NCBI RefSeq assembly: GCF_002113025.1
Contig: NZ_NEJH01000001.1
Location: forward strand, 1 to 64,000
Direction: 5' to 3'
Origin: Pseudomonas sp. B28(2017)
GTDB lineage: Bacteria; Pseudomonadota; Gammaproteobacteria; Pseudomonadales; Pseudomonadaceae
Length of the DNA stretch: 64,000 bases
The translations under genes and the position numbers were made by a program. The stretch's first letter is position 1, and each line of letters opens with the position of its first letter. Below the pieces are notes generated by a model. The model saw nothing but the letters and a program-made list of their open reading frames with translations, was not told where the DNA came from and did no database searches. This document shows, one piece after another, positions 12,358 through 58,711 of the stretch.

Positions 12358-12690
12358 AGGGTTATTCCTTGTTCCGTGCGGGTAGCATCAAGTTGCCATG
12401 AGTATTGGCAATCCCGTGATGGCAGTCAAAGGGACAATCATCCTTGGGGGATTTTGCCTGCAGCTTGGCCGATTTGCAGTTGTCTTGACGAGTTAGCCTG
12501 TTAGCACTGTGTCGGTTGTCGAGTCCTTCAACTTGAGGGGCGGGGGTGGAGATATTTTCCCTTTGTTTGATGTTAGTCGGCGTGGGCGGGGGAGCAAGGC
12601 CCGGAAGGCTTGTTTCATTTTCGGAACACGCCCCGTGCGTTAGCCAAAAAAAACCCGGCATAAGCCGGGTTTTTTTGACTGGCGACGAGC
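12358..12690. other. 333-base gap between sodB and bifA
   Basis: Holds the sodB terminator at its right end and presumably the bifA promoter and leader. An open frame on the minus strand (12362-12661) ends with a TAA three bases before the bifA TTG, but it starts inside the sodB terminator and has no recognisable features. No clear operator was seen. Confidence 0.5.
12646..12676 (-). terminator. Rho-independent terminator of sodB
   Basis: AACCCGGC, loop ATAA, GCCGGGTT, flanked by runs of A and T (seven Ts on the transcribed side). It lies 15 bases after the sodB stop and is symmetric, so it can work in both directions. Confidence 0.95.
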
Positions 12691-13287
12691 TTAAGCGGTG
12701 AAGGTTTTGCCTTCGAACTGCTCAGCCACGAACTTCCAGTTGACCAGGTTCCAGAACGCTTCGACATACTTTGGACGCAGGTTGCGGTAGTCGATGTAGT
12801 AAGCGTGTTCCCAGACGTCGCAGGTCAGCAGCGGGGTGTCGCCGTTGGTCAGCGGGTTGCCGGCGCCGATGGTGCTGGCCAGGGCCAGGGAACCGTCAGC
12901 CTTCTTCACCAGCCAGCCCCAACCGGAACCGAAGGTGCCGATGGAAGTCTTGCTGAACTCTTCCTTGAACTTGTCGAACGAACCGAAAGCTGCGTTGATG
13001 GCTTCAGCCAGTGCGCCGGTTGGTTGGCCGCCAGCGTTTGGCGCCAGGCAGTTCCAGTAGAAAGTGTGGTTCCAGACCTGAGCGGCGTTGTTGAAGATAC
13101 CGCCCGAGGAAGTCTTGACGATTTCTTCCAGGGTCTTGCCTTCGAACTCGGTGCCTGGCACCAGGTTGTTCAGGTTCACGACGTAGGTGTTGTGGTGCTT
13201 GTCGTGGTGGTATTCCAGGGTTTCCTTGGAAATGTGCGGCTGCAGGGCATCGTGTGCGTAAGGCAGCGGCGGCAATTCGAAAGCCAT
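12691..13287 (-). CDS. sodB: Iron superoxide dismutase
   Basis: Cytoplasmic enzyme that converts superoxide to oxygen and hydrogen peroxide. 198 residues, the usual length. Metal ligands by family position: H27 (in LEYHHDKHH), the His of VWNHTFYWN (H74), and the Asp and His of [11 protein letters not shown]. The stretch FGSGWGWLV with the nearby AGNPLT fits the iron rather than the manganese type. The ATG at 13287 begins the canonical [11 protein letters not shown]; longer in-frame extensions are non-family. A monocistronic unit is likely, given the terminator downstream and the 164-base gap upstream. In Pseudomonas, FeSOD is commonly reduced during iron starvation by PrrF RNAs; no such site could be tested here. 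Confidence 0.96.
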
Positions 13288-43057: not shown

Positions 43058-44176
43058 GTGAATCAACGATTGACCCATAACGCCATCCAGCGCCTGTTGC
43101 TCAAACGTTTCGCCCTGGCGGCCGGCACCTATGCCCTGGCATTGCTGTTGCTTTGGCTGGCGTTTTTTACCGGTCACTACGACGCGCCGCTTACCAGTGT
43201 CGTCATTGGCAGCGTACTGGTAGTGGCCAGCCAGGCCATCCTGTTCGTGGTGTTCTACCGCGGCTACAACCTGCGCTTCGCCGACCCCAGCCTGACCGAG
43301 GCGCAAGTGTTGCTGGGGCTGGGCTGGCAAACCTGGCTGATCGCCCATCTGGACGAAGCCCGGGGCGCGTTTCTGGTGTTTTACGTGCTGATCCTGCTGT
43401 TCGGCCTGTTCCATCTGTCACGCCGGTCTTTTGTACGATGTGCGTTACTGGTGTTTTTCAGTTTCAGTGCGATCACGTTGTGGGAGGGCTACCACTTCCA
43501 GCTGCCTGACCCGGCCATGGCGGTGTTGCAGGTTTGTGTGCTGTTCATCGTACTGGTGTGGCTGGTGCTGTATGCCCGCCATGTCCAGGCCTCGCGACAG
43601 CGTATGCGTCAGCGGCGTTTTGCGTTGCAGGCGCACCAGGACACGTTGCGCGGGATGATGCGTCAGCTCGAAGACCTGGTGGCCACCGACGAGCTCACCG
43701 GTCTGTTCAATCGCCGGCATTTCCTGCGCCTGGCTTCCCGCGAGTTGAAAGCCATGGACGCGGGTGTCGTGCATGGCCTGGCGTTGATCGACCTTGACCA
43801 TTTCAAGCGCATCAACGACCTGCACGGCCATGCCGCCGGCGATCAGGTGCTGCAAGCCTTTGCCGGCGTTGCCACCGCGTGCCTGCGCGACGGTGACGTT
43901 CTGGCTCGCTATGGCGGCGAAGAGTTCGTGCTGCTGCTGCCCGATTGTGATGCCGACAGTCTGACTTCGTGCTGCGAACGGCTGCGCATCGCATTCACCG
44001 ATGTCGAGATGATCGGGCTGAATGTGCGCAACCTGAGCCTGTCCGCCGGCATGACCCTGCTGGAACCGGGCGACGACCTCGATGATGCCCTGCAACAGGC
44101 CGATCAGGCGCTCTATCGCGCCAAACGTGATGGCCGCAACCGATGCGCGGCAGCGTGGGAGAACGTCGATGCCTGA
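43058..44176 (+). CDS. sadC: Membrane diguanylate cyclase SadC
   Basis: Makes cyclic di-GMP from two GTP and so favours surface attachment. About 372 residues: five hydrophobic segments (about 18-38, 46-67, 103-121, 124-143, 153-173) and a C-terminal GGDEF domain with an intact GGEEF (286-290) and an inhibitory RxxD site, RDGD (277-280), five residues before it. The start is uncertain: GTG at 43058, TTG at 43055 or TTG at 43070 are in frame, and no clear Shine-Dalgarno is seen. The stop overlaps the next gene by 8 bases. The name rests on the membrane-GGDEF layout and on synteny with PA4332-PA4331 (recalled). In P. aeruginosa, SadC opposes BifA, whose gene is also in this window. Confidence 0.82.
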   Translation: MNQRLTHNAIQRLLLKRFALAAGTYALALLLLWLAFFTGHYDAPLTSVVIGSVLVVASQAILFVVFYRGYNLRFADPSLTEAQVLLGLGWQTWLIAHLDEARGAFLVFYVLILLFGLFHLSRRSFVRCALLVFFSFSAITLWEGYHFQLPDPAMAVLQVCVLFIVLVWLVLYARHVQASRQRMRQRRFALQAHQDTLRGMMRQLEDLVATDELTGLFNRRHFLRLASRELKAMDAGVVHGLALIDLDHFKRINDLHGHAAGDQVLQAFAGVATACLRDGDVLARYGGEEFVLLLPDCDADSLTSCCERLRIAFTDVEMIGLNVRNLSLSAGMTLLEPGDDLDDALQQADQALYRAKRDGRNRCAAAWENVDA

Positions 44177-45104
44177 ACTGCGGGTCGGCGAGCGCCACTG
44201 GTCGGTGGCGGCGGGCAGCAATCTGCTCGATGCGCTGAATCAGAACGGCGTGCCGGTGCCTTACAGTTGCCGCGCCGGCAGTTGCCATGCATGCCTGGTG
44301 CAGTGTGTACAGGGCCTGCCGAGTGACAGCCGGCCGGATGCCCTGAGTGCACAGCAACGTGAGCAGGGCTGGCGGCTGGCGTGCCAGTGCCAGGTGGTCG
44401 AGGACTTGCAGGTGCATGCCTTCGACCCGCAGCTCGATGGCCATCCGGCCGAGGTCGCGGCGGTCGATTGGCTGAGCGCCACGGTGCTGCGTTTGCGGGT
44501 GATCGCGCAGCGTCCATTGCGCTATGGCGCCGGCCAGCACCTGGTGTTGTGGGCGGGCTGCGTGGCGCGCCCGTATTCTCTCGCCAGCCTGCCGCAGGAA
44601 GACCGTTTTCTGGAGTTTCATCTCGATTGCCGCAAGCCCGGGGAATTCAGCGATGCCGCCAGGCAATTGCGCATCGGCGATCCGATCCGTCTGGGGGAAC
44701 TGCGCGGCGGGGCCTTGCATTACGACCCTGACTGGCACGTCCGGCCGTTGTGGCTGATGGCGGCCGGTACCGGATTGGGGCCGTTGTTTGGCGTATTGCG
44801 CGAAGCGCTGCGCCATGATCATCAGGGCGCCATCCGCGTCATTCACCTGGCCCATGATGCCGATGAGCACTACTTGGCCAAACCTCTGCAAGCCATGGCC
44901 GCCAGCCGTCCGAACTTGAGTGTCGAACTGTGGACCCCGGCCGAGTTGCCAGCGGCTTTGGCGCAACTGCGGCTTGTTTCGCGGCAAACCCTGGCCTTAC
45001 TCTGCGGAGCCCCCGACAGTGTCGATGCCTTCGCCCGGCGCCTGTACCTGGCGGGATTGCCGCGCAATCAACTGCTGGCCGATGTGTTCCTGCCCCGTGG
45101 TTGA
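44169..45104 (+). CDS. 2Fe-2S ferredoxin/flavoprotein reductase
   Basis: A 311-residue electron-transfer protein: an N-terminal plant-type ferredoxin domain with C34-x4-C39-x2-C42 and a fourth Cys near 72, followed by a ferredoxin-NAD(P)+ reductase part (FAD site RPYSLAS near 140; NAD(P) site LMAAGTGLGPLFG near 195). It would pass electrons from NAD(P)H to an iron-sulfur centre or an oxygenase partner, but no oxygenase gene is adjacent. The start overlaps the sadC stop by 8 bases, and GGAG precedes it. The enoyl-CoA hydratase gene follows after 29 bases. Confidence 0.86.
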   Translation: MPELRVGERHWSVAAGSNLLDALNQNGVPVPYSCRAGSCHACLVQCVQGLPSDSRPDALSAQQREQGWRLACQCQVVEDLQVHAFDPQLDGHPAEVAAVDWLSATVLRLRVIAQRPLRYGAGQHLVLWAGCVARPYSLASLPQEDRFLEFHLDCRKPGEFSDAARQLRIGDPIRLGELRGGALHYDPDWHVRPLWLMAAGTGLGPLFGVLREALRHDHQGAIRVIHLAHDADEHYLAKPLQAMAASRPNLSVELWTPAELPAALAQLRLVSRQTLALLCGAPDSVDAFARRLYLAGLPRNQLLADVFLPRG

Positions 45105-45133
45105 GCGCTGACTTTTCAGACGCGAGACCTGCC

Positions 45134-45883
45134 ATGACCGATGCCATCCAAGTTGAACGCGAACGCGGCCTGTTGACCCTGCGCCTGCATCGCCCGGACA
45201 AGAAAAACGCCCTGACCCGCGCCATGTACAGCCACCTGGCCGAAGCGTTGAAACAGGCCGACAGCGACCCCGAGATCAACGCCGTGCTGATCACCGGCTC
45301 CGCCGAATGCTTCACCGCTGGCAACGACATCGCCGATTTCATCCAGCAACCGCCGAGCGGCCTCGACAGCCCGGTATTCCAGTTCATGCTCAGCCTGCTT
45401 GAATGCCGCAAACCGGTGATCGCTGCCGTGGCTGGAGCGGCGGTGGGCATTGGCACGACGATGTTGCTGCATTGCGATCTGGTCTACGTCAGCCGTGATG
45501 CACGCTTGCGCATGCCATTCGTCAATCTCGGGTTGTGTCCGGAATTCGGCTCCAGCCTGCTCCTGCCGCGTTTGCTTGGGCATGCCAAAGCGGCGGAACT
45601 GTTGCTGCTCGGTGAGGGTTTCACTGGCGAACAGGCTGCGGCGTGGGGCATTGCGTCCGAGGCGCTGGGCAGTGGCGAAGAGGCCTTGGCCAAGGCGCGG
45701 GAGATGGCGCTGCGCTTCGAATCGCTGCCGCTGGAAGCGGTGCGCATCAGCAAGCAATTGATGAAGGCGCCGGATCGCGAGTTGTTGCGCAAGGTGATCG
45801 AAGAGGAGGGGGCGTTGTTTACCCAGCGGCTGCGCTCGCCGGAAGCGATGGCGGCGTTGTCGGGGTTCATCAAGCGGCAATGA
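45134..45883 (+). CDS. Enoyl-CoA hydratase/isomerase family protein
   Basis: A 249-residue crotonase-fold protein. Oxyanion-hole segments ECFTAGNDIADF (57-68) and AAVGIGTTMLLHCDL, and a catalytic Glu in LGLCPEFGSS. Having one clear catalytic Glu, it may be an isomerase or a hydratase; the acyl-CoA substrate cannot be read from the sequence. It is the third gene in the sadC unit, with a GAGA ribosome site. It has no evident link to c-di-GMP. Confidence 0.87.
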   Translation: MTDAIQVERERGLLTLRLHRPDKKNALTRAMYSHLAEALKQADSDPEINAVLITGSAECFTAGNDIADFIQQPPSGLDSPVFQFMLSLLECRKPVIAAVAGAAVGIGTTMLLHCDLVYVSRDARLRMPFVNLGLCPEFGSSLLLPRLLGHAKAAELLLLGEGFTGEQAAAWGIASEALGSGEEALAKAREMALRFESLPLEAVRISKQLMKAPDRELLRKVIEEEGALFTQRLRSPEAMAALSGFIKRQ

Positions 45884-45907
45884 TTTTTTGGTGACAAGGC
45901 TGGCCTC

Positions 45908-45926
45908 TTCGCGAGCCTGCTCGCGA
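45908..45926. repeat. Partial REP element
   Basis: TCGCGAGCCTGCTCGCGA, the palindromic core of the element without the GTGGGA/TCCCAC ends. It lies between the convergent enoyl-CoA hydratase and pyruvate kinase genes. Confidence 0.55.
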
Positions 45927-45965
45927 TAGCGGTTGTCCAGCCAATACACCTTCAGGATCAGTAAG

Positions 45966-45998
45966 CAAAAAGCCCCGCCATTCACATGGCGAGGCTTT
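45966..45998 (-). terminator. Rho-independent terminator of pykA
   Basis: AAGCCTCGCCA, loop TGTGAA, TGGCGGGGCTT with one G-T pair, then TTTTT on the minus strand. It lies about 20 bases after the pyruvate kinase stop. Confidence 0.9.
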
Positions 45999-46019
45999 CG
46001 TCTTTCAGCAAGCGGTCAC

Positions 46020-47471
<1,452 letters not shown>

Positions 47472-47546
47472 GCAAAGACTCCTGAGTTCAAGCGCTGAGT
47501 GAGGCTACTATGCTCCGATGGTGTAGTCATTGTTCGTCTGCACTAC

Positions 47547-47600
47547 TTTTTTTGAAGAGCTTGGTTTTTTTGAAGAGCTTGGTTTTTTTGAAGAACTTGG
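47547..47600 (+). repeat. Three tandem 18-base repeats
   Basis: Three adjacent copies of TTTTTTTGAAGAGCTTGG (47547-47564, 47565-47582, 47583-47600), the third with A for G at one base. They lie in the pykA-lipoprotein gap. Each copy has a run of seven T, so the array is AT-rich and possibly bent. Copy number could vary between strains. Confidence 0.9.
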
Positions 47601-47697
47601 TTAATGCCTTCTTTATTGAACCAGGCAACTTCTCGATTCTACCGCCTGAAGATTTCCGACCATGGGTCGATACAGGGTTCAAGACAGGAGATCCCCC

Positions 47698-48081
47698 ATG
47701 CGATTCGTGCCCATTGCCGCCCTTGCCCTCAGCGCTCTCAGCGCCACGGGCTGCACCCGTTGGTCGATGAACCATCATTTGAACAATGCCTACAGTGCCT
47801 ATGACCGGGGCAATTGCGAGCAAGTGATGCTCGAACTGTCCAAGGTCGAACGCGACAGCCGCGCGCGGCCTTACGTGTGGCCGGAAGTATCGATGATGCG
47901 TGGCCAGTGCCTGGAACGGCAGAAGATGTTTATCGACGCGGCCCAGACCTACCAGTTCATTATTGCCGCGTATCCGCAAAGCGAATACGCCTACCGCGCC
48001 CACGCCCGCCTGGAAACCTTGCAGAGCCTGGGCCACTACCCGATGCGCAGTGCAGCGGCCGTTAAACCGACGCAGTTCTGA
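47698..48081 (+). CDS. TPR-like lipoprotein
   Basis: A 127-residue lipoprotein: signal MRFVPIAALALSALSATGC with lipobox Cys19, then a helical region resembling TPR repeats (AYSAYDRGNCEQVMLELSKVE; DAAQTYQFIIAAYPQSEYAYRAHARLETL), similar to envelope scaffolds such as YbgF/BamD C-terminal repeats. AGGAG before the ATG at 47698 decides this start. It is probably a periplasmic binding scaffold. A single-gene unit is likely; the gap to the PilZ gene is 232 bases. Confidence 0.78.
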   Translation: MRFVPIAALALSALSATGCTRWSMNHHLNNAYSAYDRGNCEQVMLELSKVERDSRARPYVWPEVSMMRGQCLERQKMFIDAAQTYQFIIAAYPQSEYAYRAHARLETLQSLGHYPMRSAAAVKPTQF

Positions 48082-48313
48082 TGGCGGTAACCCTCTGATC
48101 GCTGGCTCACCGACGGTGGTGAGCTATAGTCGAAGAAACCGGTTCCGGAGCCTTGCCTCTGAACCGGGGCAACACCTGTGACCGGCACAAGCAAGACTCT
48201 GCGCTTCAAGGACTGGCGCACCGGAAGCGGGGAGAGCGGGCAAAGACTTATGGGTACCCGTTCCGAAGCAGTAGTGCGGCTCTGCTTAAGAGCCTTGCAT
48301 AGCGATATTGCAC
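48082..48313 (+). other. 232-base leader region of the PilZ gene
   Basis: No gene seen. It contains CCGGTTC...GAACCGG (about 48141-48168) and GGCTCTGCTTAAGAGCC (about 48276-48293), both able to form hairpins, and a TATAGT that may be a -10 element. The length exceeds what a simple promoter needs. Confidence 0.4.
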
Positions 48314-48673
48314 ATGTACACCGACCGCCGAATCGAGCGGCATCAACTGCCGTGCTTCCTGAAAGTGTTCAACGGCATCAACGACAAACCCATCGGATTT
48401 CTGGGCAACGTCTCTGAAGACGGGCTGATGCTCATCAGCCAGTTGCCGATGATGATCGGTGTGGACTTCAACCTGCGCCTGAAAATTCCCGCCAACGAAG
48501 GTGGCCAGCGGATCATCGATCTGCAAGCCTGTTGCCTGTGGTGCCACGAAGACGTGACCCCCCAACATTACGACGCCGGGTTCAGCCTGCAACGGGCACC
48601 GCCGGAGTATGGGCAACTGGTGGAGGCGCTGAGGCAGTACTTCAGTTTTCTGCCCTTGCCGGCTTCGGCTTGA
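48314..48673 (+). CDS. PilZ-domain c-di-GMP receptor
   Basis: A 119-residue single-domain PilZ protein. RRIER (5-9) and NVSEDG (33-38) give the two c-di-GMP-binding motifs RxxxR and (D/N)xSxxG, both intact, so it should bind the messenger. The ATG at 48314 was chosen over a TTG two codons earlier. No output domain is attached, so it acts through an unknown partner. Its stop faces the DUF58 gene stop across 37 bases. By position it may match PAO1 PA4324 (recalled). Confidence 0.85.
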   Translation: MYTDRRIERHQLPCFLKVFNGINDKPIGFLGNVSEDGLMLISQLPMMIGVDFNLRLKIPANEGGQRIIDLQACCLWCHEDVTPQHYDAGFSLQRAPPEYGQLVEALRQYFSFLPLPASA

Positions 48674-48710
48674 TCTCACCGGGAAACCGATGGTGAATGA
48701 TTGCTCAGGC

Positions 48711-50039
48711 TCAAACTCCAGTTCTTTTCCAGCCCAGGTACCGAGTCACCAACTCTGCCCCCAACTCGGCGGGCCGCACATCCATCACCAGTACTCCATG
48801 AGCGTTCAAGCGCTCATGGAGTTCGGCGCGTGCATTCAGGTAGTCCACGGTCCCGCAATAGGCCAGCGCCTCGGGCAAAGTCTGCACAGGTGACTGACGC
48901 AGGGTGTCTAGAACGTCTTCGCGCAGGCTCGCGACCAGCACCTGATGCTGCTGGCTCAGGCGGTTGACGGCCGGAAGCAATTCATCGTCGTGCTCATCCC
49001 GAAGGTTGGTTACCAGCACCACCAGCGCCCGGCGTTTTTGCCGTGCCAGCAGTTGCGTTACCGCCGCTTGATAGTCGGCGCTGCGTCGAGTGCTGTTCAA
49101 GTCATAAACGCTGTTGAGCAGTGTGTTGAGGTGGTTGGTGCCTTTTACCGGCCCAAGGTAGCGCGGCTGTTCGCTGGCAAAGGTACTCAGGCCCACCGCG
49201 TCGCCTTGGCGTAGCGCGACGTAGCTGAGCAACAAACAGGCGTTGAGGGCGTGGTCGAAGTGCGACAGCTCATCATCCTGGCTGCGCATATGCCGGCCGC
49301 AGTCGAGCATGAAGATGATCTGCTGGTCGCGCTCGTCCTGGTACTCCCGGGCAATCGGTGTGCGCTGGCGGGCGGTGGCTTTCCAGTCGATCTGGCGCAG
49401 GCTGTCGCCCTCGCGAAATTCGCGTAATTGATGGAACTCCAGGCCCAGGCCCCGTCGTTGTTTCTGGCGTACGCCAAGCTGGCTGAGCCAGTTATCCACC
49501 GCCAGCAATTGCCCTTCATAGAGACGGGCGAAGTCGGGGTAGACGCGGGTGGCGTCGGGCAGCTCGAGCAAGCGTCTGTCCGACCAGAGCCCCAAGGGAC
49601 TTGGCAGGTTGATTTCACAGCGTTCGAAGCTGAAATGGCCGCGTTTGAGCGGACGCAGGCGATAACCGCACAGGCTGTGCTGGCCGGGTTGCAGCTCGAC
49701 CGTCAGAGGCAGGTTTTCAAAGCTCAGGCCCGCTGGCACATGGTCGAAGACTTGCACGTTCAGCGGTTGGGCAAAGTCGTGTTCAAGGGTCAGTTGCACC
49801 TCGCTCCATCGGCCCAACGCCAGGCTGCCGGGCAACTGGCGCTTCAGCCGGGGCGATGGCAGGCGCTTCACGCGAACAGCATCCAACAGGGACAGGGCCA
49901 GCAGCGCCAGGAGCAACCCCCAGTTGATCGCCATGAGATTCGCCGGAACCGTGAACTCCAGTGCTTGCAATGTGCCCGACACAATGCCGCAGGCCAGCAG
50001 GATCAGCAGCCAGACGAGCATCAGGCGCGACGGTTTCAC
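48711..50039 (-). CDS. DUF58 protein of the MoxR operon
   Basis: A 442-residue membrane protein with two TM helices (about 6-24 and 37-53) and a cytoplasmic part. The DUF58 core is FHQLREFREGDSLRQIDWK (202-220), and a vWA-like region follows with FMLDCGRHMRS where the MIDAS motif would be; it is incomplete (D246, no DxSxS). Such proteins are typical partners of MoxR ATPases. The GTG at 50039 overlaps the MoxR stop by 4 bases. It is the last gene of the six-gene operon. Role: unknown; probable assembly or stress-related membrane complex. Confidence 0.85.
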   Translation of the reverse strand: MKPSRLMLVWLLILLACGIVSGTLQALEFTVPANLMAINWGLLLALLALSLLDAVRVKRLPSPRLKRQLPGSLALGRWSEVQLTLEHDFAQPLNVQVFDHVPAGLSFENLPLTVELQPGQHSLCGYRLRPLKRGHFSFERCEINLPSPLGLWSDRRLLELPDATRVYPDFARLYEGQLLAVDNWLSQLGVRQKQRRGLGLEFHQLREFREGDSLRQIDWKATARQRTPIAREYQDERDQQIIFMLDCGRHMRSQDDELSHFDHALNACLLLSYVALRQGDAVGLSTFASEQPRYLGPVKGTNHLNTLLNSVYDLNSTRRSADYQAAVTQLLARQKRRALVVLVTNLRDEHDDELLPAVNRLSQQHQVLVASLREDVLDTLRQSPVQTLPEALAYCGTVDYLNARAELHERLNAHGVLVMDVRPAELGAELVTRYLGWKRTGV

Positions 50040-51037
50040 AGGCGCGGCGCCGGCACTTGGTCGAGCATCTGCTGGAGTACCTGGTCGACATCCAGGCCCT
50101 CGATATCCAGCTCCGGCGCGATGCGCACACGATGACGCAGCACGGCCAGGGCGCAACCCTTGATGTCATCCGGAATCACGAACTCACCACCGCGCAGCAG
50201 CGCACGAGCCCGGGCACATCGCACCAGCGCGATGGACGCGCGTGGCCCGGCGCCGAGGATCAAGCCGGGCCAATTGCGGGTGGAGCGGGCCAGGCGCACG
50301 GCGTAATCGAGCACCTGATCGTCCAGCGGCAGGTCGCTGGCGATACGTTGCAGGGCCAGTACATCCTTGGCCTGCAATAACGTGCGCATCGGTTGAACAT
50401 CGAGCATGTCGGCCCGGGTCGAGCGGCTGACCTGACGAACCATGTTCAGCTCTTGCTCGGCGTCGGGATAATCCATGCGCACCTTGAGCATGAAACGGTC
50501 AAGTTCGGCCTCCGGCAACGGGTAAGTGCCTTCCTGTTCGATCGGGTTCTGCGTGGCGAGCACCATGAACGGTTGTGCAATCGGCAATGGACGCCCTTCG
50601 AGGGTGACTTGCCGTTCCTGCATGGCTTCGAGCAGCGCCGCCTGGGTTTTCGCCGGGGCGCGGTTGATTTCGTCGGCCAACAACAGGTTGGTGAACAGCG
50701 GGCCTTTGCGCAGTTTGAATTGCTCGGTCTGCAAGTCGTACACCGCGTGGCCGGTGACGTCGCTGGGCATCAGGTCCGGGGTGAACTGGATGCGCGCAAA
50801 CTCGCCGCCGAAACAGCGGGCGAGGGCGCGCACCAGCAGGGTCTTGCCCAAACCCGGTACGCCTTCGAGCAGCACATGACCGCCCGCGATCAGCGCGGTC
50901 AGGACGTCGTCGATCACGCTGTCCTGGCCGATCAAGGCTTTTTGCAGTTCATTGCGTACGGCCTGCGCCAGGTGGCTGGCACGCTGACGTTGTTGAGCGG
51001 CATGGCTCGGTACGTCGGGCTCGATCGGTTGACTCAT
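50036..51037 (-). CDS. MoxR-family AAA+ ATPase
   Basis: A 333-residue AAA+ ATPase. Walker A GVPGLGKT (59-66), Walker B LLADEINR (118-125), sensor regions ATQNPIEQEGTYPLPEAELDRF. MoxR ATPases act like chaperones that remodel or mature protein complexes, often with vWA/DUF58 proteins. The ATG at 51037 overlaps the DUF4350 stop by 4 bases. By position it may match PA4322 (recalled). The substrates in this operon would be the adjacent membrane proteins, an inference. Confidence 0.9.
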   Translation of the reverse strand: MSQPIEPDVPSHAAQQRQRASHLAQAVRNELQKALIGQDSVIDDVLTALIAGGHVLLEGVPGLGKTLLVRALARCFGGEFARIQFTPDLMPSDVTGHAVYDLQTEQFKLRKGPLFTNLLLADEINRAPAKTQAALLEAMQERQVTLEGRPLPIAQPFMVLATQNPIEQEGTYPLPEAELDRFMLKVRMDYPDAEQELNMVRQVSRSTRADMLDVQPMRTLLQAKDVLALQRIASDLPLDDQVLDYAVRLARSTRNWPGLILGAGPRASIALVRCARARALLRGGEFVIPDDIKGCALAVLRHRVRIAPELDIEGLDVDQVLQQMLDQVPAPRL

Positions 51038-52197
51038 AGGGCATTCCTCAAGGATTGCAGGTGTGCGACCTGACGGCTGAATTCAACGCTGGAAAGCCGT
51101 TGCTGCGGTCGCGGGCTCATGGCCTGGCTGATAGCGCGTGTGGGTTGGCCGGTCAGGCGTGCGAGCACCAGCCACTGTTCGGCAACACCGAGCTTTTCAA
51201 AGCCGGGATGGCGACGCCGCACGCGCCGCAGGATGTCTTGCTGCAAGGCCTGCAGCAGGCCGGCCTGACCATTGCGGCGCAACAGGAAATCGGCACTGGC
51301 GCGCAGGTGCTCCTGCAGTTGCCGGCGTGCTTTCGGCGCCGGTTCCTGCAGTGGTCCCTGCCGCACGCCAAAGTGCCAGAAACCCAGGCCGATCAAGGCG
51401 AGCAGTGCAACCAGTGCCTGGGGAAAATAACGCAGCAGCAAGGTCGGCAGGCTGTCGTGATCGGTGTTGAAGATCAGTGTCACGTGGGTGTCGGCGGTCA
51501 GGTACCAGAGCAGCCAGGCATTGTCGTACTGGCCGATGGCCGAGGTTTTCCACAAGTCGGCATCGGTGACCACGATGATCGAGCCGAGCCCGTGATCGAG
51601 CTGCATCATGTGCGTGGCCTTGGCGCTGTTGGCCCAGGCCAGGGCGAGGTTTTTCGGGTCTTCGAGATGGAACGCCGTATCGAAACCGGCATAGGCCGGG
51701 GCTTCTTCGCCTTCCAGGTAAAGCTTGGTCAGTTGCGGGTACGGATCTTCGCCGACGTTGGGTGGCGGTGCCTTGAGGTCCTTGCTCAGGAGCTGGTGAA
51801 CTTGCACCCGATCGAGCAGCAGGTCGTTGCTGTGGCCGAGTTTTTCATCCCACAGCGACTCAGCGACGAACAGAAGCCGCCCACCGGCCCGGGTCCAGTT
51901 CATCACTTGGTCGACCAGCCGTGGGCTCATATTGTAGCGGTCACCGAGCAGCAGCAGGCTGTGTTGATGCGGGTCGAGGCTGCGCAGGATGTCGAGGCCA
52001 TTGGCGTGGTCGACGCTCAGGCCTTGCTTGCGCAGGAAGAGCTCCGCCGCCAGATAAGGGTTGGCCTTGGCTTCGGGGGAGGGACCGTGGTCGATTTCGC
52101 TCTGGTAGGGGATTGCCTTGAGGTACAGATAAACACTCAACGCAGCCACCAACACGGCGATCAATGCCCCGGCTATCGCCCCCCGGCGCCGACTCAA
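51034..52197 (-). CDS. DUF4350 membrane protein
   Basis: A 387-residue protein of unknown function. TM1 about 8-27, an extracytoplasmic DUF4350 domain (about 40-250) that resembles a Rossmann-like or GATase-like fold (LLLLGDRYNMSPRLVDQVMNW; GRLLFVAES), TM2 about 262-280, and a cytoplasmic tail with basic coils. The ATG at 52197 overlaps the DUF4129 stop by four bases. Its family often sits in MoxR/DUF58/DUF4129 operons. The role is not known. Confidence 0.8.
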   Translation of the reverse strand: MSRRRGAIAGALIAVLVAALSVYLYLKAIPYQSEIDHGPSPEAKANPYLAAELFLRKQGLSVDHANGLDILRSLDPHQHSLLLLGDRYNMSPRLVDQVMNWTRAGGRLLFVAESLWDEKLGHSNDLLLDRVQVHQLLSKDLKAPPPNVGEDPYPQLTKLYLEGEEAPAYAGFDTAFHLEDPKNLALAWANSAKATHMMQLDHGLGSIIVVTDADLWKTSAIGQYDNAWLLWYLTADTHVTLIFNTDHDSLPTLLLRYFPQALVALLALIGLGFWHFGVRQGPLQEPAPKARRQLQEHLRASADFLLRRNGQAGLLQALQQDILRRVRRRHPGFEKLGVAEQWLVLARLTGQPTRAISQAMSPRPQQRLSSVEFSRQVAHLQSLRNAL

Positions 52198-53738
52198 CGG
52201 ACAGCCTCCGAGCCGAACAGGATACGCCAGCCGTTACACAGTTCCTGCTGCACTTGGGCGGGTGGCAGACGATGACCGTAGGCCATGTTTTGCCAGTGCC
52301 CGGTGAGATCTTTGCTGTACGCCAGCAGGGCCGGTCGCTGTAACAGCTCAACGCGCCGAAGTACCTGGCCTTCGGTGTCGGCGGCCTTGAGTGCGATGTT
52401 GAAATCATGCAACAGGCGGCTGAGCAGGGCGCGATAAAGCAAGCCGAGGGCTTCGCGCGGATGGGTCTGCCAGAGACTTTCAGCGCTGGTGGCGATGTCG
52501 GTGGGCAGGGACTCGGGCTTGAGGTCCAGGCCGAATGCCTGCTGCGGTAACGGTCGCGTGTTTTTTATGTCGAGGGGCGGTCGACGGCTGACAAATGCTT
52601 GCAACCAGTCGCGATAGCGCCAGATCAACAGGCCGAGGGCTCCGATGACGGTGCCCCACAGCACGATTTCAATCAGGCTCGCCAATACCCCGAAGCGCTG
52701 CCCCTCAAGCAGCTTCAGCAGGGTCTTCAACCATTGCGGTGTCTTGCCGTCGTCCCGGGCTTCAGCGCTTGGCTGGTCTTCGCCAAAGCGGTAGCGCGTC
52801 ACTGTTTCCCGGTTCTTGAAGGGCGGCTGTTCGAGGATCATCTTGATGCTGTCCCTGGAGGCTCGACTGGTCAGGGGCTGGTCCAGCAAGCGTGGGCTGT
52901 CGGGTGACATGGCCGGTTCGGCGGCCCACACGCTGTGTGTGGTTGGCATCAGCAATATCACGGCGATCAACAGGGCAGCGCCTGCGCTGGTGAGGCGCTG
53001 GCGCATGCGGCGAAACACCAGTTCGATATCCCAGGCCTCCAGCACGGTGCGCCGGTTCAGGTAAAGGCTGAAACCGCAGGCGACATGGATCGGTTCCCAG
53101 ACCACCAGCACCAGTGCATAAAAGGCGTTGGTCAGATGTTCCAGCCAACGCCAGTCCTGGCTGGCCGCAGAGATCAGCGACTGCCAGCTCCAGTCGAGCG
53201 CGACCTGTTGTGGCAGCAAAAGATAGAACAACACCATCAAGCCGATCCACAACGCGCCTTCCAGGTGCGCGCCGATGATCGTCAGCCAGCGCGCGGCGCC
53301 GGTGTCTCGCTGCAACAGCACCTGTAGACGCTGTTGCCGTTGCGGACCTTTGAGGCCTTCGAGTTGCACCACCGGCATCACGAAACTGCGATGCAGACTC
53401 AGGCGTCGCCAGGTCAGGCTGGCCAGCAATTGCGGTTTGAGCAGGCGTGGCCATTGGTGCAGGGCCTGCTTGAGCGTGGGCGTTTCACCGAACATGGCTT
53501 TGGACAGAATGTACAAGGGCAGGCGTTCGTACGCCGGCTTCAGCCACCAGAAAATGAACACGGCGAGAGAGGGGGAATCCCAGAATCCCCAACTGAGCAG
53601 CGCGAAAACGGGAAAGGTGACCATGGCCCAACTGGTCATCAACAGGCGTCGGTGGCGCTGGCTCAGGAGCACGCCGAGGTCCATGGCTTCCCAGGTCGAG
53701 CGCGGGCGAATCACCACCGTGGCGTCACTCAGGTGCAT
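52194..53738 (-). CDS. DUF4129 membrane protein
   Basis: A 514-residue protein. Four or more TM helices in the N-terminal half (about 37-70, 140-170, 195-215, 250-275), then an extracytoplasmic stretch, a further TM near 350-370, and the C-terminal DUF4129 domain (about 420-514, EALGLLYRALLSRLLHDFNIALKAADTEGQ). DUF4129 is frequently fused to or placed beside transglutaminase-like proteins, but no transglutaminase gene is present here. The ATG at 53738 is preceded by GGACG; an ATG six codons earlier is also possible. It overlaps the SpoIIM-like gene by 14 bases. Confidence 0.78.
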   Translation of the reverse strand: MHLSDATVVIRPRSTWEAMDLGVLLSQRHRRLLMTSWAMVTFPVFALLSWGFWDSPSLAVFIFWWLKPAYERLPLYILSKAMFGETPTLKQALHQWPRLLKPQLLASLTWRRLSLHRSFVMPVVQLEGLKGPQRQQRLQVLLQRDTGAARWLTIIGAHLEGALWIGLMVLFYLLLPQQVALDWSWQSLISAASQDWRWLEHLTNAFYALVLVVWEPIHVACGFSLYLNRRTVLEAWDIELVFRRMRQRLTSAGAALLIAVILLMPTTHSVWAAEPAMSPDSPRLLDQPLTSRASRDSIKMILEQPPFKNRETVTRYRFGEDQPSAEARDDGKTPQWLKTLLKLLEGQRFGVLASLIEIVLWGTVIGALGLLIWRYRDWLQAFVSRRPPLDIKNTRPLPQQAFGLDLKPESLPTDIATSAESLWQTHPREALGLLYRALLSRLLHDFNIALKAADTEGQVLRRVELLQRPALLAYSKDLTGHWQNMAYGHRLPPAQVQQELCNGWRILFGSEAVR

Positions 53739-54702
53739 GGCGGCGACGTCCGGCAAACACGAGATAAGCCACCACCAGCAACCAGAGTGCTGCGCCCACC
53801 AGGTACTTGGTCTGGTACGACGGGCCAGTCATGGATGACCAGTAGGCTTCGATAAACGCCGCAATCAACAGGAACAGCATGACCCCACAGATCAGCAACA
53901 CACTCTTGCGCGCGGCCAATCGCAAGGCCTCGGCGCGTGGCAGGCGCCCCGGGGCGACTAACGCCCAGCCCAGCTTCAGGCCGGCGGCACCGGCCAGGGC
54001 GATGGCGCTGAGTTCGAAGGCGCCATGGCCGATCACGAATGACCAGAAAGTTTGCCCATAGCCGACGTAGGTCAGGTGCCCGGCCACCGCACCGATCATC
54101 AGGCCGTTGAAGATCAGGAAAAACACACTGCCCAGACCCCATAGCAAACCACTGGCGAAGGTCTGAAAGGCGATGCCGATGTTGTGCATGATGTAGTAGC
54201 CGAACATCGCCCAGTCCTCGCTGGCGGCTCGCTCCACCGTGCGCCCGAGGTGACCGGCTACGGGGTCGTACATGCTTTGCATCTCGCTGACCTGCTCGGC
54301 GGGGATCAGGTTGTAGACCAGGTCCGGGTACTGGTACACCAGCAGCGCAAAACCGGCCAGGCTGGCAAAGAACATCAGGCTGGCGGCGAGGACGAAACGC
54401 CACTGTTCGCGCACCAGTCGCGGAAAGTCGGCGAGGATGAATGCCAGCACGTTGGCGCCCGGACGGCTGCGGTGACGGTAGAGTTGTTGGTGCCCGCGCA
54501 GTACTTGTTGCTGCAAGGAATCGATCAGAAAACTGCTGTAACCCCGCTCCCTGGCCAGTGCCAGGTGTTGGCAGAGACGTCGGTAGTCCCTCGGGAAATT
54601 GCCGGCGCCGGTGGCTTGCCTGTCGTGCTCCAACTGCTCGAGCAGATGAGCGAACCGTTCCCATTCGGCCTTGTGCCGGTTTTCAAAAAGGCTTTGCTTC
54701 AT
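53725..54702 (-). CDS. SpoIIM-like (DUF95) membrane protein
   Basis: A 325-residue multi-pass membrane protein of the stage II sporulation protein M family. An N-terminal soluble helical part (1-100) precedes about five or six TM helices from about 101. The central GYYIMHNIGIAFQTFASGLLWGLGSVFFLIFNGLMIGA and GHGAFELSAIALAG are the family signature. In spore formers SpoIIM works with SpoIID/SpoIIP in peptidoglycan remodelling; this organism does not sporulate, so the function differs. The start overlaps the RDD stop by four bases. An unusual family member in a gamma-proteobacterium, but regular in this operon. Confidence 0.84.
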   Translation of the reverse strand: MKQSLFENRHKAEWERFAHLLEQLEHDRQATGAGNFPRDYRRLCQHLALARERGYSSFLIDSLQQQVLRGHQQLYRHRSRPGANVLAFILADFPRLVREQWRFVLAASLMFFASLAGFALLVYQYPDLVYNLIPAEQVSEMQSMYDPVAGHLGRTVERAASEDWAMFGYYIMHNIGIAFQTFASGLLWGLGSVFFLIFNGLMIGAVAGHLTYVGYGQTFWSFVIGHGAFELSAIALAGAAGLKLGWALVAPGRLPRAEALRLAARKSVLLICGVMLFLLIAAFIEAYWSSMTGPSYQTKYLVGAALWLLVVAYLVFAGRRRHAPE

Positions 54703-55424
54703 GTCGGCCCCAACAAGCCGCGTGCGATGCCGTTGAGCTCGGTCACCGCCTGCGGGGCCGGGACTTGCAACGGTTGGGCGAGGATCGCAGCCAGCTCATC
54801 GGCCCGCGCCCGGGAGAGTTCGCCTTGGCGCTCGGCAAACCCGAGAATGGCCCGTTGCTCGGTGAGTGTCAGGGTAAAGGCCGGGCGGCGGGGCTGGGCT
54901 TCAGGGAGTTCGGGGCGGGTGTGCGATTGTTCGCGGTAAATCACCAGGGTACCGGCGGCGATATCGCCGAGGCGCTTGAAGTGGGGGTGTTGCAGGCAAC
55001 TGATGGCCCCGAGGAAGTAACCGAACGGCAACAGGTCGACAGCGCGCAGCAGGTTGCGCAGCAGCGAAGCGGACCAGCCGACCGGGGTGCCATCGTCATG
55101 CACCACCCGTAGTCCCATCCATTGCTTGCCCGGCGAGCGGCCGTGATTCAGCACCTCGAACAACACCATGTACCACCAGCTCGCCACGAACAGCAGGATC
55201 GAGCCGAGTCCGGCCCCCAGTTTGCCGAGCATCGCCAGTGCAATGAACAGCACGCCCAGGACCAGGCCGCGCAAACCAAGGTCGATGGCAAACGCCAGTG
55301 CACGGACCATCAACCCGGCCGGGCGCAGTGGCAGGTCGACGCCCTCCGGCGTTTCGACCTGGTACCGCGTATCCAGCGGCGGTGACAGCGGCGCATTCCC
55401 AGGCAGTGCTGTGGTCTCGAGCAT
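54699..55424 (-). CDS. RDD-family membrane protein
   Basis: A 241-residue protein with an RDD domain (about 30-170). The three hydrophobic helices are near 40-60, 70-92 and 125-145, and the diagnostic Arg/Asp residues are in RALAFAIDLGLRGLV and RLGDIAAGTLVIYR. The family function is unsettled (transport or ion-homeostasis suggestions). The ATG at 55424 follows CAGGT; a TTG six bases earlier is in frame. It is the first gene of the operon, so the promoter must lie in the 196-base gap before sbcB. The cytoplasmic C-terminus is about 70 residues long. Confidence 0.83.
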   Translation of the reverse strand: MLETTALPGNAPLSPPLDTRYQVETPEGVDLPLRPAGLMVRALAFAIDLGLRGLVLGVLFIALAMLGKLGAGLGSILLFVASWWYMVLFEVLNHGRSPGKQWMGLRVVHDDGTPVGWSASLLRNLLRAVDLLPFGYFLGAISCLQHPHFKRLGDIAAGTLVIYREQSHTRPELPEAQPRRPAFTLTLTEQRAILGFAERQGELSRARADELAAILAQPLQVPAPQAVTELNGIARGLLGPT

Positions 55425-55620
55425 GGGCAACCTGATGATGTGGCCTGGATCGGGATTGTGTATCCATTCGATGCTAGCAGCCTATACGGGAGGGGCGGGG
55501 GGAAACGACATAACTGTGTATTGCATGGCGAGTCGCACAAGGTGCTTGAATGACAAGACTACTGGCCGGGGCGGGAGGTGAACGCCTAGACTTTGCCGAT
55601 CTTCTGTTCAGGAATCGCCC

Positions 55621-57051
55621 GTGACCTCCATCTTCTGGTACGACTACGAAACCACTGGCATCAATCCCCGTTGTGACCGTCCGTTGCAAATGGCCGGCCT
55701 GCGCACTGACTTCGATCTCAATGAAATCGACGAGCCGGTCAATCTTTACTGCCAGCCCAGTGACGACATCCTGCCGCATCCGGCTGCCTGCACGATCACG
55801 GGAATCACCCCCGGGCAACTGCAGGCGCAAGGCTTGAGCGAAGCCGACTTCATGACCCGAGTGCATGCCCAGCTTGCGGCGCCCGGTACCTGTGGCGCGG
55901 GGTATAACACTTTGCGTTTCGACGACGAAATGACCCGCTACAGCCTGTACCGAAACTTTTTCGACCCTTACGCGCGGGAGTGGCAGGGCGGCAACAGCCG
56001 CTGGGACCTGATTGATGTGGTGCGCGCCGCCTATGCCTTGCGCCCCGACGGCATCGTCTGGCCGACGGACGACGAGGGGCGGGTCACGCTCAAGCTTGAA
56101 CGCCTGACCGCTGCCAACGGCATCGATCATGGCAATGCCCACGAAGCGCTGTCGGACGTTCGCGCGACGATCGCCCTGGCACGCCTGATACGGGAAAAAC
56201 AGCCAAAGCTGTACGACTGGCTGTTTCAGTTGCGCAGCAAGCAAAAAGTCATGGACCTGGTACGACTGCTGCAACCAATGGTGCATGTTTCCGGGCGTTT
56301 TTCTGCCGCGCGCAATTATGTGGGTGTGGTGTTGCCGCTGGCCTGGCACCCGCGCAACAAGAACGCCCTGATTGTCTGTGACCTGCACCTCGATCCTCAG
56401 GGCCTGCTCGATCTGGATGCTGAAAGTTTGCGCCAGCGCTTGTATACCCGCCGCGACGAACTGGCCGAAGACGAGTTACCGGTGCCGTTGAAACTGATTC
56501 ACATCAACAAGTGCCCGGTGGTGGCGCCGTTGTCGGTACTTCGCCAGGAAGATCAGCAACGTCTGGGGCTGGATATGACGCTTTATCAGCAGAGGGTGTT
56601 GCAGCTCAATGACGCCCGGAAAGTTTGGCTGGATAAAATTCTGGCGATTTATGCTCGCGAAGATTTTTCCCCGAGCCAGGATCCTGAGCAACAGTTATAC
56701 GATGGATTTATCGGTGATCGGGATCGACGCTTGTGTGAACAAGTCAGAACCGTTGACCCGATACAATTGGCACAAGAGCAGTGGCCTTTCGATGACGAAC
56801 GTTTGCCGGAATTGCTGTTTCGATATCGCGCACGCAACTTTCCCGACACGTTGAATTCCGAGGAGCAAGAACGCTGGCGAACATTCTGTCAGAAACGTTT
56901 GTCAGATCCCGAGTGGGGGGCGCCAAATACCCTTGAAGTTTTTGTAGAGGCCGCGGCCCAGTTGAGTGTTAGTGCTACTCCGTTTCAGCAGGGTGTGCTC
57001 TGTGAGTGGCAGGATTATGTCCAGGGACTACGCCAGCGTTTGAGTCTTTGA
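55621..57051 (+). CDS. sbcB: Exodeoxyribonuclease I
   Basis: Single-strand-specific 3'-5' DNA exonuclease of recombination and repair. 476 residues. The DEDDh exonuclease motif begins FWYDYETTGINPRCDRP (5-21) with D8 and E10; a later motif, HGNAHEALSDVRATIALARL, carries the third and fourth acids. The C-terminal SH3-like and helical domains complete the ExoI fold. The GTG at 55621 has AGGA about 9 bases upstream. The last third (from about 56560) is visibly less GC-rich than its neighbours. A terminator follows. Confidence 0.93.
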   Translation: MTSIFWYDYETTGINPRCDRPLQMAGLRTDFDLNEIDEPVNLYCQPSDDILPHPAACTITGITPGQLQAQGLSEADFMTRVHAQLAAPGTCGAGYNTLRFDDEMTRYSLYRNFFDPYAREWQGGNSRWDLIDVVRAAYALRPDGIVWPTDDEGRVTLKLERLTAANGIDHGNAHEALSDVRATIALARLIREKQPKLYDWLFQLRSKQKVMDLVRLLQPMVHVSGRFSAARNYVGVVLPLAWHPRNKNALIVCDLHLDPQGLLDLDAESLRQRLYTRRDELAEDELPVPLKLIHINKCPVVAPLSVLRQEDQQRLGLDMTLYQQRVLQLNDARKVWLDKILAIYAREDFSPSQDPEQQLYDGFIGDRDRRLCEQVRTVDPIQLAQEQWPFDDERLPELLFRYRARNFPDTLNSEEQERWRTFCQKRLSDPEWGAPNTLEVFVEAAAQLSVSATPFQQGVLCEWQDYVQGLRQRLSL

Positions 57052-57084
57052 ATTCGAACATGCCAGGGCTAAAACACCACGCAT

Positions 57085-57117
57085 AAAAAACGCCAGCATT
57101 TGCTGGCGTTATTTTTT
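57085..57117. terminator. Bidirectional terminator between sbcB and mvaT
   Basis: AACGCCAGC (57089-57097), loop ATTT, GCTGGCGTT (57102-57110), with A-run before and T-run after, serving the convergent sbcB and mvaT genes. Confidence 0.93.
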
Positions 57118-57149
57118 GTCACGGATCCGTCTGCGACAAGCTCTGAGGC

Positions 57150-57527
57150 TTAGCCCAGCAGGGTAGCCCAGCCTTCCACCACGTCACCGCCCCACTTGGC
57201 TTTCCACTCTTTCAGAGTCTTGTGGTTGCCACCTTTGGTTTCGATGACTTCACCGTTGTGCGGGTTTTTGTATTGTTTAACTTTGCGAGCACGCTTGGTG
57301 CCGGTAGTTTTCACTGCACCGCCGCGTGGTGCCTTGGTTTTGGATTCCGGATCCAGCAGCGCGATGATGTCACGCAGGGACTTGGAGTATTCACCCATCA
57401 GGGTGCGCAGTTTGCCTTCGAATTCCAGCTCGGTTTGCAGTTTGTCGTCTTGGGACAGGTTCTTCAAACGGGCTTGCAGCTCTTTGATAGCTTCTTCGGT
57501 GGCGCGATATTCGTTGATCAAGGACAT
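57150..57527 (-). CDS. mvaT: H-NS-like nucleoid protein MvaT
   Basis: A 125-residue xenogeneic silencer that binds AT-rich DNA and dampens horizontally acquired genes, quorum sensing and cup fimbriae. An N-terminal coiled-coil dimerisation region (about 1-60, MSLINEYRATEEAIKELQARLKN) and a C-terminal DNA-binding part (about 78-125, VKQYKNPHNGEVIETKGGNHKTLKEWKAKWG) with the AT-contact loop GGNHKT. The start at 57527 is the ATG of MSLINEY; 16 codons further upstream are not family-like. It is flanked by sbcB and purU, the order found in PAO1 (recalled). The 335-base AT-rich gap upstream probably allows self-repression. Confidence 0.95.
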   Translation of the reverse strand: MSLINEYRATEEAIKELQARLKNLSQDDKLQTELEFEGKLRTLMGEYSKSLRDIIALLDPESKTKAPRGGAVKTTGTKRARKVKQYKNPHNGEVIETKGGNHKTLKEWKAKWGGDVVEGWATLLG

Positions 57528-57862
57528 GTGGACTACCTTATGTTGTGCGCTGGATGGCAGGTGACAGTGCGGCAATAATAGTCACGGTGTTTCATCAAGT
57601 AAACATTTAAGCCAGCTTTATTTAATTTAACTGCTGTGTCTTTGGCGTGCATTGGTAATGCTGTTATTAGTATGGTCAAGGTCTGTCAGATATACATAAA
57701 TTAACATTTGACCAGCACCGCTAGAGCATCCAGGCGAACCGGCACTGGCGCTGTCCACCCTCCGCACCGACCTTCCGGCAGGGTGAAACGTCAACAATAC
57801 TGCAGTTTTGCTGCGCAATCGCTAGAATGGCGGCCTTTGCGAAGTTCTGGAGTTTCCCCCTC
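57528..57862. other. 335-base AT-rich divergent region between mvaT and purU
   Basis: No gene seen. Its left half is AT-rich (for example TTTATTTAATTTAAC near 57620), which suits MvaT self-binding; the right half is normal GC and holds the purU promoter, with TAGAAT at 57823-57828 as a possible -10 element. No terminator. Confidence 0.6.
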
Positions 57863-58711
57863 ATGCGCACTTTTCGTCTGGTGATTTCTTGCCCGGACCG
57901 TGTTGGCATCGTTGCCAAAGTCAGTAACTTTCTGGCATCACACAACGGCTGGATCACTGAAGCGAGCCATCACTCGGACAATCTCAGTGGCTGGTTCTTC
58001 ATGCGTCACGAAATCCGTGCCGACTCCCTGCCATTTGGTATCGAAGCGTTTCGCGAAGCCTTTGCCCCGATCGCCGAAGAGTTCTCGATGGACTGGCGCA
58101 TCACCGATACCGAACAGAAGAAACGCGTGGTGCTGATGGCCAGCCGCGAGTCGCACTGCCTGGCCGACTTGCTGCACCGCTGGCACAGCGATGAACTGGA
58201 CTGCGAAATTTCCTGTGTGATTTCCAACCATGATGACCTTCGCAGCATGGTGGAGTGGCACGGCATTCCGTACTACCACGTACCGGTCAACCCGCAGGAC
58301 AAGCAACCGGCCTTCGCCGAGGTTTCGCGCCTGGTCAAGCAGCACGATGCCGAAGTGGTGGTGCTTGCCCGTTACATGCAAATCCTGCCGCCGGAGTTGT
58401 GCAGCGAATACGCGCACAAGGTCATCAACATTCACCACAGCTTCCTGCCGTCGTTCGTCGGTGCCAAGCCGTACCACCAGGCCTCCCTGCGTGGCGTGAA
58501 ACTGATCGGCGCGACCTGCCACTATGTGACCGAAGAGCTGGATGCCGGCCCGATCATCGAGCAGGACGTGGTGCGTGTCAGCCACAGCGACAGCATCGAA
58601 GACATGGTACGTTTCGGCCGTGATGTCGAGAAAATGGTGCTGGCCCGTGGCTTGCGTTATCACCTGGAAGACCGGGTGCTGGTACACGGCAACAAAACCG
58701 TCGTCTTCTGA
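57863..58711 (+). CDS. purU: Formyltetrahydrofolate deformylase
   Basis: Hydrolyses 10-formyltetrahydrofolate to formate and tetrahydrofolate, balancing the one-carbon pool and supplying formate for purine synthesis. 282 residues: an N-terminal ACT domain (about 1-75, FRLVISCPDRVGIVAKVSNFLASHNGWI) and a formyltransferase-type catalytic domain from about 87 with the N-H-D residues in NIHHSFLPSFVGAKPYHQA and the later EELDAGPIIEQD. The ATG at 57863 matches the family N-terminus. The gene after it is a 58-residue protein, with a hairpin between (58738-58770). Confidence 0.93.
   Translation: MRTFRLVISCPDRVGIVAKVSNFLASHNGWITEASHHSDNLSGWFFMRHEIRADSLPFGIEAFREAFAPIAEEFSMDWRITDTEQKKRVVLMASRESHCLADLLHRWHSDELDCEISCVISNHDDLRSMVEWHGIPYYHVPVNPQDKQPAFAEVSRLVKQHDAEVVVLARYMQILPPELCSEYAHKVINIHHSFLPSFVGAKPYHQASLRGVKLIGATCHYVTEELDAGPIIEQDVVRVSHSDSIEDMVRFGRDVEKMVLARGLRYHLEDRVLVHGNKTVVF

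Follow-up and report, generated by a model that had tools for sequence, protein, structure and literature searches.

What do six genes do that follow one another on the minus strand of a Pseudomonas genome, each overlapping the next? The genes lie in a stretch of 64,000 nucleotides (nt) of Pseudomonas sp. B28(2017) (contig NZ_NEJH01000001.1, positions 1 to 64,000), called here the window, and they code for an RDD-family protein, a SpoIIM-like protein, a DUF4129 protein, a DUF4350 protein, a MoxR-type AAA+ ATPase and a DUF58 protein. The comparison presented here leads to the following answer: the six genes are probably counterparts of arc2B to arc2G, that is, of six of the seven genes of the antagonism resistance cluster 2 (arc2, PA4317-23) of P. 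aeruginosa, and their products are predicted to form an ATP-driven machine for the repair of the inner membrane. This identity and this predicted role, taken together, are held with reasonable confidence.

All six open reading frames (ORFs) are free of stop codons, and all six gene names score above the Pfam cut-off in a scan of the six proteins, which confirms the first-pass annotation of this DNA in its description of a six-gene operon on the minus strand. The genes are probably one functional unit and the products are predicted to be located in the membrane. The connection with arc2 comes from published deletion primers: the upstream primer for PA4320 aligns within the SpoIIM gene, upstream of DUF4129, and the upstream primer for PA4323 aligns within the MoxR gene, upstream of DUF58, with two mismatches in each case. 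Besides, the DUF4129 and DUF58 genes begin in a similar way to PA4320 and PA4323 as printed, and KPS after the start codon is common to DUF58 and PA4323. PA4320 and PA4323 were assigned from these primers and starts, and PA4318, PA4319, PA4321 and PA4322 from gene order only. The likeness thus consists of the places and starts of DUF4129 and DUF58, the order of the matched parts and the presence of a MoxR and von Willebrand factor A (vWA) pair in one block.

Arc2 is one of three resistance clusters published in 2022, in which PA4317-23 are named arc2A-G (PMC8926400). It defends P. aeruginosa against the type VI secretion system (T6SS) of a rival, and its genes, which include those for a MoxR-like ATPase and a protein with a von Willebrand factor (VWF) domain, co-occur in many Xanthomonadaceae and Pseudomonadaceae (PMC8926400). 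In the screen against the T6SS of B. thailandensis six arc2 genes scored in P. aeruginosa, and four of the six exceeded threefold against ColA, a colicin-like predicted pore-former. The addition of a PA4320 deletion to a PA4323 deletion caused no further change, which places both genes in one pathway. Basal expression of arc2 is very low and can be induced via Gac/Rsm (PMC8926400). A preprint of 2025 extends Gac/Rsm defence to other pseudomonads; in the available main text the term Arc2 is absent, apart from 'Arc1-3' (PMC11888443). In the literature covered, the defence phenotype is published for P. aeruginosa only.

It had been proposed that the combination of families has no known function and is a candidate for an undescribed system. 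The match to PA4317-23, with its published defence phenotype, rules this out (PMC8926400).

The operon of the window differs from arc2 of P. aeruginosa, which has seven genes with arc2A first, whereas here arc2A is lacking and a six-gene variant is found. In P. aeruginosa-like genomes the place between xonA and the RDD gene is occupied by a membrane protein of about 255-271 residues with weak similarity, below the cut-off, to DUF975/GPDPase_memb; that this protein is PA4317/arc2A follows from its place, not from a named sequence. With a threshold of E 1e-20 or better, 37 of 148 genomes searched in the family have arc2A, as do 8 of 19 within the genus (the genome of the window being one of the 19), and it lies between the divergent xonA and the co-directional RDD gene in all 30 loci examined that have it. 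On the other hand, the gene is not at the locus in the window or in any of 80 related loci (the best 80 of 482 found with a close query, all named Pseudomonas), where the gap between xonA and RDD has a median of 184 nt and a maximum of 499 nt. The rest of the genome of the window lacks arc2A as well, apart from a best match of 25% identity that lies elsewhere. One genome from another family of the order (locus L134) has an arc2A-like gene with 35% identity at the same place, so loss of arc2A is favoured over its gain. Some P. aeruginosa-like genomes have arc2A as two tandem diverged copies (for instance L122, 4351-5151 and 5308-6072), and two long arc2A matches are listed for five genomes.

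The sequence A-N-G-G-A is the core of RsmA/CsrA sites, and it was counted here within 32 nt of the start codon. Of the 30 arc2A leaders, 28 contain it, frequently in the form CAAGGAC; in leaders from P. aeruginosa-like genomes it falls within GGAAAGGACTTTCC. This count overstates the number of independent cases, since nine of the loci (the first ones, L158-L166) are close relatives with 84-100% identity. Among the related loci, in which RDD is the first gene, ANGGA stands near the start in only 4 of the 80 leaders, against a background of 17 of 116 genes taken from the window and seven related stretches, a count which is if anything too high because some arc2A genes are included. The genome of the window keeps RsmZ as well as an Arc3A-family gene (PF10101) with ANGGA before its first candidate start. 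Since this lineage has neither arc2A nor its preceding RsmA-like site, Gac/Rsm control of the six-gene operon has probably been altered or lost there, and RsmA probably does not directly control the translation of the first gene. An RsmA site in the leader of the window itself was also considered and is not supported: the places of GGA are not kept, and the few ANGGA motifs near the start have been given above. Of the 81 leaders, the window included, 24 have no GGA at all in their final 80 nt.

A conserved element is found upstream of RDD. GCTAGCAT lies 30-47 nt before the ATG of RDD in 76 of the 80 related loci. In the wider Pseudomonadaceae it is present at 9 of the 11 loci, both where arc2A exists and where it does not; it is a candidate -10 region. 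A simple scan of 48200-55700 gave no match to a sigma-70-type promoter or a minus-strand terminator, and Rfam gave none in 44000-58000. An in-frame TTG occurs at 55430, upstream of the RDD ATG.

The six genes had been described as locked together by overlaps of 4, 14, 4, 4 and 4 bases. These sizes are correct; the four-base junctions were said to read ATGA or GTGA, which fails for DUF4129/DUF4350, where the letters are TTGA. The overlaps go beyond chance at the first three junctions: RDD and SpoIIM overlap by 4 nt and SpoIIM and DUF4129 by 14 nt in all 80 related loci, and DUF4129 and DUF4350 by 4 nt in 79. The RDD-SpoIIM-DUF4129-DUF4350 part may be truly coupled. 'Locked' describes these three junctions and not the other two: DUF4350 and MoxR overlap in 69 of 75 measured loci and are split by 2.5 kb or more in 11 of the 80, and MoxR and DUF58 overlap by 4 nt in 43 of 71 measurable loci and are separated by more than 40 nt in the other 28. 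Fixed stoichiometry, which had been deduced from the overlaps, is not supported in view of these gaps and splits. Neither conserved loss nor scattering of members was found in the close relatives: all six genes are present in 71 of the 80 loci, and the remaining nine are either cut off by the end of the stretch or interrupted by an island ahead of the final one or more genes. A word typical of repetitive extragenic palindromes (REP), scored with our own word list, occurs in 24 of the 28 MoxR/DUF58 gaps over 40 nt. Such REP-like palindromes are seen at MoxR/DUF58, for instance, in L014 (about 8875-9046) and L021 (about 12668-13062).

The DUF4350/MoxR splits, which range from 2.5 to about 46 kb, are due to islands (loci L009, L011, L013, L016, L018, L019, L020, L036, L047, L061 and L086). 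Six of them measure 2.5-4.4 kb; in the other five MoxR is over 5 kb away (about 13.6, 15.4, 36 and 46 kb) or, in L047, on another contig. A MoxR of 92-96% identity is kept in all five large-split loci, and DUF58 is kept in the island loci wherever the sequence reaches that far. The sequence covers ten of the eleven left ends, and at all ten the foreign DNA starts directly behind the stop codon of DUF4350. At the right end, ten of the eleven islands add 14 codons that begin with ATG and continue in frame into moxR (MEDK...KAPE, or a close variant); the eleventh (L020) has lost the ATG of this extension. L016 no longer has the native start codon of moxR. Two islands open with ORFs whose layout resembles ginABC(D) of GInts, of 384, 560 and 631 residues (L202) and of 394, 559, 629 and 142 residues (L203). 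In the L019/L202 set the first ORF has an integrase domain and the second is without a Pfam match. The likeness of these two islands to GInts is one of ORF sizes, order and place, not of compared sequences. GInts have been described with other target genes and an outward promoter (PMC5385486); MoxR is mentioned neither in the available main text of that paper nor in the main text of PMC10214605. The cargo of the islands varies and includes a GGDEF-EAL protein, a PPK2 beside a transporter-like ORF, an Abi_2 protein, a 2481-residue ORF and GInt-like integrase genes.

Put together, these observations allow a wider and more tentative reading, which is given slightly less than an even chance. The arc2 operon of this lineage would have been freed from Gac/Rsm danger sensing and placed under its own conserved GCTAGCAT promoter, either always on or answering another signal. 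It would be a device of two halves: RDD-SpoIIM-DUF4129-DUF4350, tightly coupled, in the membrane, and MoxR-DUF58 as a motor that can be separated from it. GInt-like islands would enter exactly at the ATGA seam between them and give moxR a new start with 14 codons, so that the defence works on even with an island in its operon. New are the form without arc2A, the lack of an RsmA-like leader and the seam at which islands enter, whereas the function of the P. aeruginosa counterpart is already in print; no report of these three features was found in the literature searched, most subscription papers being outside its scope. The survey shows that close relatives keep the first four genes together and that the motor pair may be separated; it also offers a natural experiment, since some lineages have arc2A with its RsmA-like leader and others lack both. 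If control has truly changed, an immune operon triggered by danger became differently controlled.

With regard to the mechanism, the MoxR ATPase, docked on a membrane-anchored DUF58/vWA protein, would spend ATP to repair or clear an inner membrane damaged by the pore-forming toxin of a rival. SpoIIM, RDD, DUF4129 and DUF4350 would be the membrane assembly on which this pair acts. The available text of PMC8926400 gives no mechanism for Arc2, and chaperone-like roles are known for MoxR/vWA pairs, as cited there. The protein features are as follows. Membrane segments are predicted for each of SpoIIM, RDD, DUF4129 and DUF4350, and hydropathy indicates N-terminal hydrophobic segments in DUF58. MoxR contains GVPGLGKT and ADEINR, its nearest solved relative being 2r44 (E 1.4e-76); in 24 related loci the Walker A expression matches in 20 and the Walker B motif (ADEINR) in all. 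The MoxR/vWA pairing proposed earlier is upheld by Pfam, with AAA_3 in MoxR and DUF58 plus VWA_2 in its partner. A working metal ion-dependent adhesion site (MIDAS) reads DxSxS. The corresponding motif of DUF58 reads D-C-G-R-H, and D-x-G-R is found in 17 of 24 related loci (the expression used was blank in six and matched the wrong place in one). Because D-x-G-R takes the place of DxSxS, DUF58 would more probably serve as an adaptor than bind in a metal-dependent way.

Several results weigh against the arc2-like repair machine or against the change of its control. Coupling is judged here from four junction counts. The AlphaFold2 model of SpoIIM (all-helical, mean predicted local distance difference test, pLDDT, of 83.9) found no counterpart in a Foldseek search with a limit of E 0.001, and that of DUF4129 is too poor for use (pLDDT 50.9), so the models do not back the mechanism. 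RsmA could act at another site: 57 of the 81 leaders, the window included, have one to three GGA in the 80 nt that precede the start. No ANGGA precedes the arc2A-like gene of L134; judging by this single case, arc2A looks older than the RsmA-like site. Finally, a set of five mycobacterial genes suggests a broader role in the envelope.

This set leads to an explanation in which the six proteins are a general chaperone for envelope homeostasis or for cell-wall and division assembly, toxin resistance being a by-product of the better condition of the inner membrane; it is regarded as rather unlikely. Rv3691-Rv3695 and their M. chelonae counterparts resemble the operon in that DUF4350, MoxR, DUF58, SpoIIM and RDD genes have neighbouring tags, and they differ in that Rv3694c is, by its name, on the other strand and the available passage names no DUF4129 and no defence function (PMC8191103). 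The five genes fell together in one dataset, along with the block neighbours MAB_0380 to MAB_0392c, and since genes with neighbouring tags fell too, the M. chelonae data are a weak sign of co-regulation (PMC8191103). Rv3694c (SpoIIM) and Rv3695 (RDD) co-purify with the division protein Rv0954 (PMC8093794). Besides, the families stand together in another order (DUF4350-MoxR-DUF58-SpoIIM-RDD) in 4 of 40 stretches chosen from DUF4350 matches across the genomes of the phylum (L133, L138, L151 and L155); the DUF4350 of the last three is recognised by Pfam, in L155 below the cut-off, and DUF4129 is present in L155 only. A general envelope function fits poorly, however, with P. aeruginosa, whose arc mutants survive heat, H2O2, salt and detergent like the wild type (PMC8926400, section 6) and whose arc2 expression is as low as stated above.

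Less probable still is a secretion or membrane-remodelling apparatus. Makarova and co-workers predicted such a complex for archaeal loci with an anchored DUF4350 protein, a MoxR ATPase and a vWA protein, the same kinds of parts as here, and bacterial SpoIIM has been noted beside vWA and AAA+ genes (PMC5898192). The archaeal partners are Ig-like and S-layer proteins, and neither 'RDD' nor 'DUF58' appears in the available main text of that paper. None of the six genes has the look of an exported substrate in Pfam, and inactivation of Arc2 leaves the survival of the rival unaffected in P. aeruginosa, hence its defensive role there (PMC8926400). The same archaeal study bears on the SpoIIM-like protein, which had seemed out of place in an organism without spores: many non-spore-forming bacteria have one (PMC5898192). 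Another possibility is that the overlaps reflect the ordinary compaction of Pseudomonas operons and say nothing on a complex of fixed ratio. Its chances are judged even, and it is compatible with the membrane-repair machine; the openings at MoxR/DUF58 and the island splits at DUF4350/MoxR speak for it, whereas the near-complete conservation of the first three overlaps speaks against it.

Beyond the close relatives, DUF4350 is matched at E 0.001 in 94 of 299 phylum genomes, 59 of them above the family cut-off. In the 40 wider stretches, 19 have all six genes in the order of the window, one (L132) has four genes and 16 are without a MoxR/DUF58 operon by our own profiles. At all 11 loci from the wider Pseudomonadaceae the same six genes stand beside xonA, and 8 of these loci also have pyk within the 20 kb covered.

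The operon was also compared with other MoxR systems. Two operons of the MoxR-DUF58-BatAB type in the genome of the window share the MoxR-DUF58 pair, their MoxR proteins being 46 and 45% identical to that of the operon, and BatA/BatB-like genes follow by ORF reading, not by Pfam; they lie at G000:C1:571000-590000 (L188) and G000:C1:600000-619000 (L189). None of the six proteins has a tetratricopeptide repeat (TPR) match, and DUF58 is followed by a PilZ gene on the other strand, which sets the operon apart from the Bat type. MoxR matches PF20030 (47.2 bits) and no beta-propeller match, as in the bpMoxR ternary system, was found among the six proteins. The absence of a transglutaminase, observed in the first-pass annotation, is correct, since Pfam lists no such domain for the six proteins; compared with the TgpA-type transglutaminase-DUF4129 locus, the window has DUF4129 only. 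Among the models of known anti-phage defence systems, PADLOC 2023 gave two weak partial matches for MoxR (DolB, 1.7e-5; IetA, 6.7e-4) and none for the other five proteins.

Table 1. Position of the six genes, their junctions, the leader and the upstream neighbour in the window.
Feature	Position	Strand	Remarks
RDD-family membrane protein, first gene of operon	54699..55424	-	PF06271, 66.8 bits; PA4318/arc2B by gene order
SpoIIM-like membrane protein	53725..54702	-	PF01944, 126.6 bits; PA4319/arc2C by gene order
DUF4129 membrane protein	52194..53738	-	PF13559, 30.6 bits; PA4320/arc2D, start resembles published primer region
DUF4350 protein, two predicted transmembrane helices	51034..52197	-	PF14258, 75.8 bits, hydropathy; PA4321/arc2E by order
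MoxR-type AAA+ ATPase	50036..51037	-	PF07726 (AAA_3), 215.6 bits; PA4322/arc2F by order
DUF58 protein, N-terminal hydrophobic segments and vWA-like domain	48711..50039	-	PF01882, 104 bits; PF13519 (VWA_2), 31.3 bits; PA4323/arc2G
RDD/SpoIIM overlap, ATGA	54699..54702	-	4 bases
SpoIIM/DUF4129 overlap	53725..53738	-	14 bases
DUF4129/DUF4350 overlap, TTGA, TTG start	52194..52197	-	4 bases
DUF4350/MoxR overlap, ATGA	51034..51037	-	4 bases; island insertion point in 11/80 relatives, empty here
MoxR/DUF58 overlap, GTGA	50036..50039	-	4 bases; opened in 28/71 relatives, mostly by REP-like palindromes
Operon leader without ANGGA motif near start codon	55425..55470	-	
GCTAGCAT element upstream of RDD, candidate -10 region	55471..55478	-	
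xonA (exodeoxyribonuclease I), divergent upstream neighbour	55621..57051	+	NF008746, 687.7 bits

Downstream of DUF58, the PilZ gene is followed by a 139-residue ORF without a Pfam match and by pyruvate kinase. Past xonA, at 57150-57575 of the window, lies the gene for the nucleoid silencer MvaT, which neighbours xonA at all 11 loci from the wider Pseudomonadaceae too.

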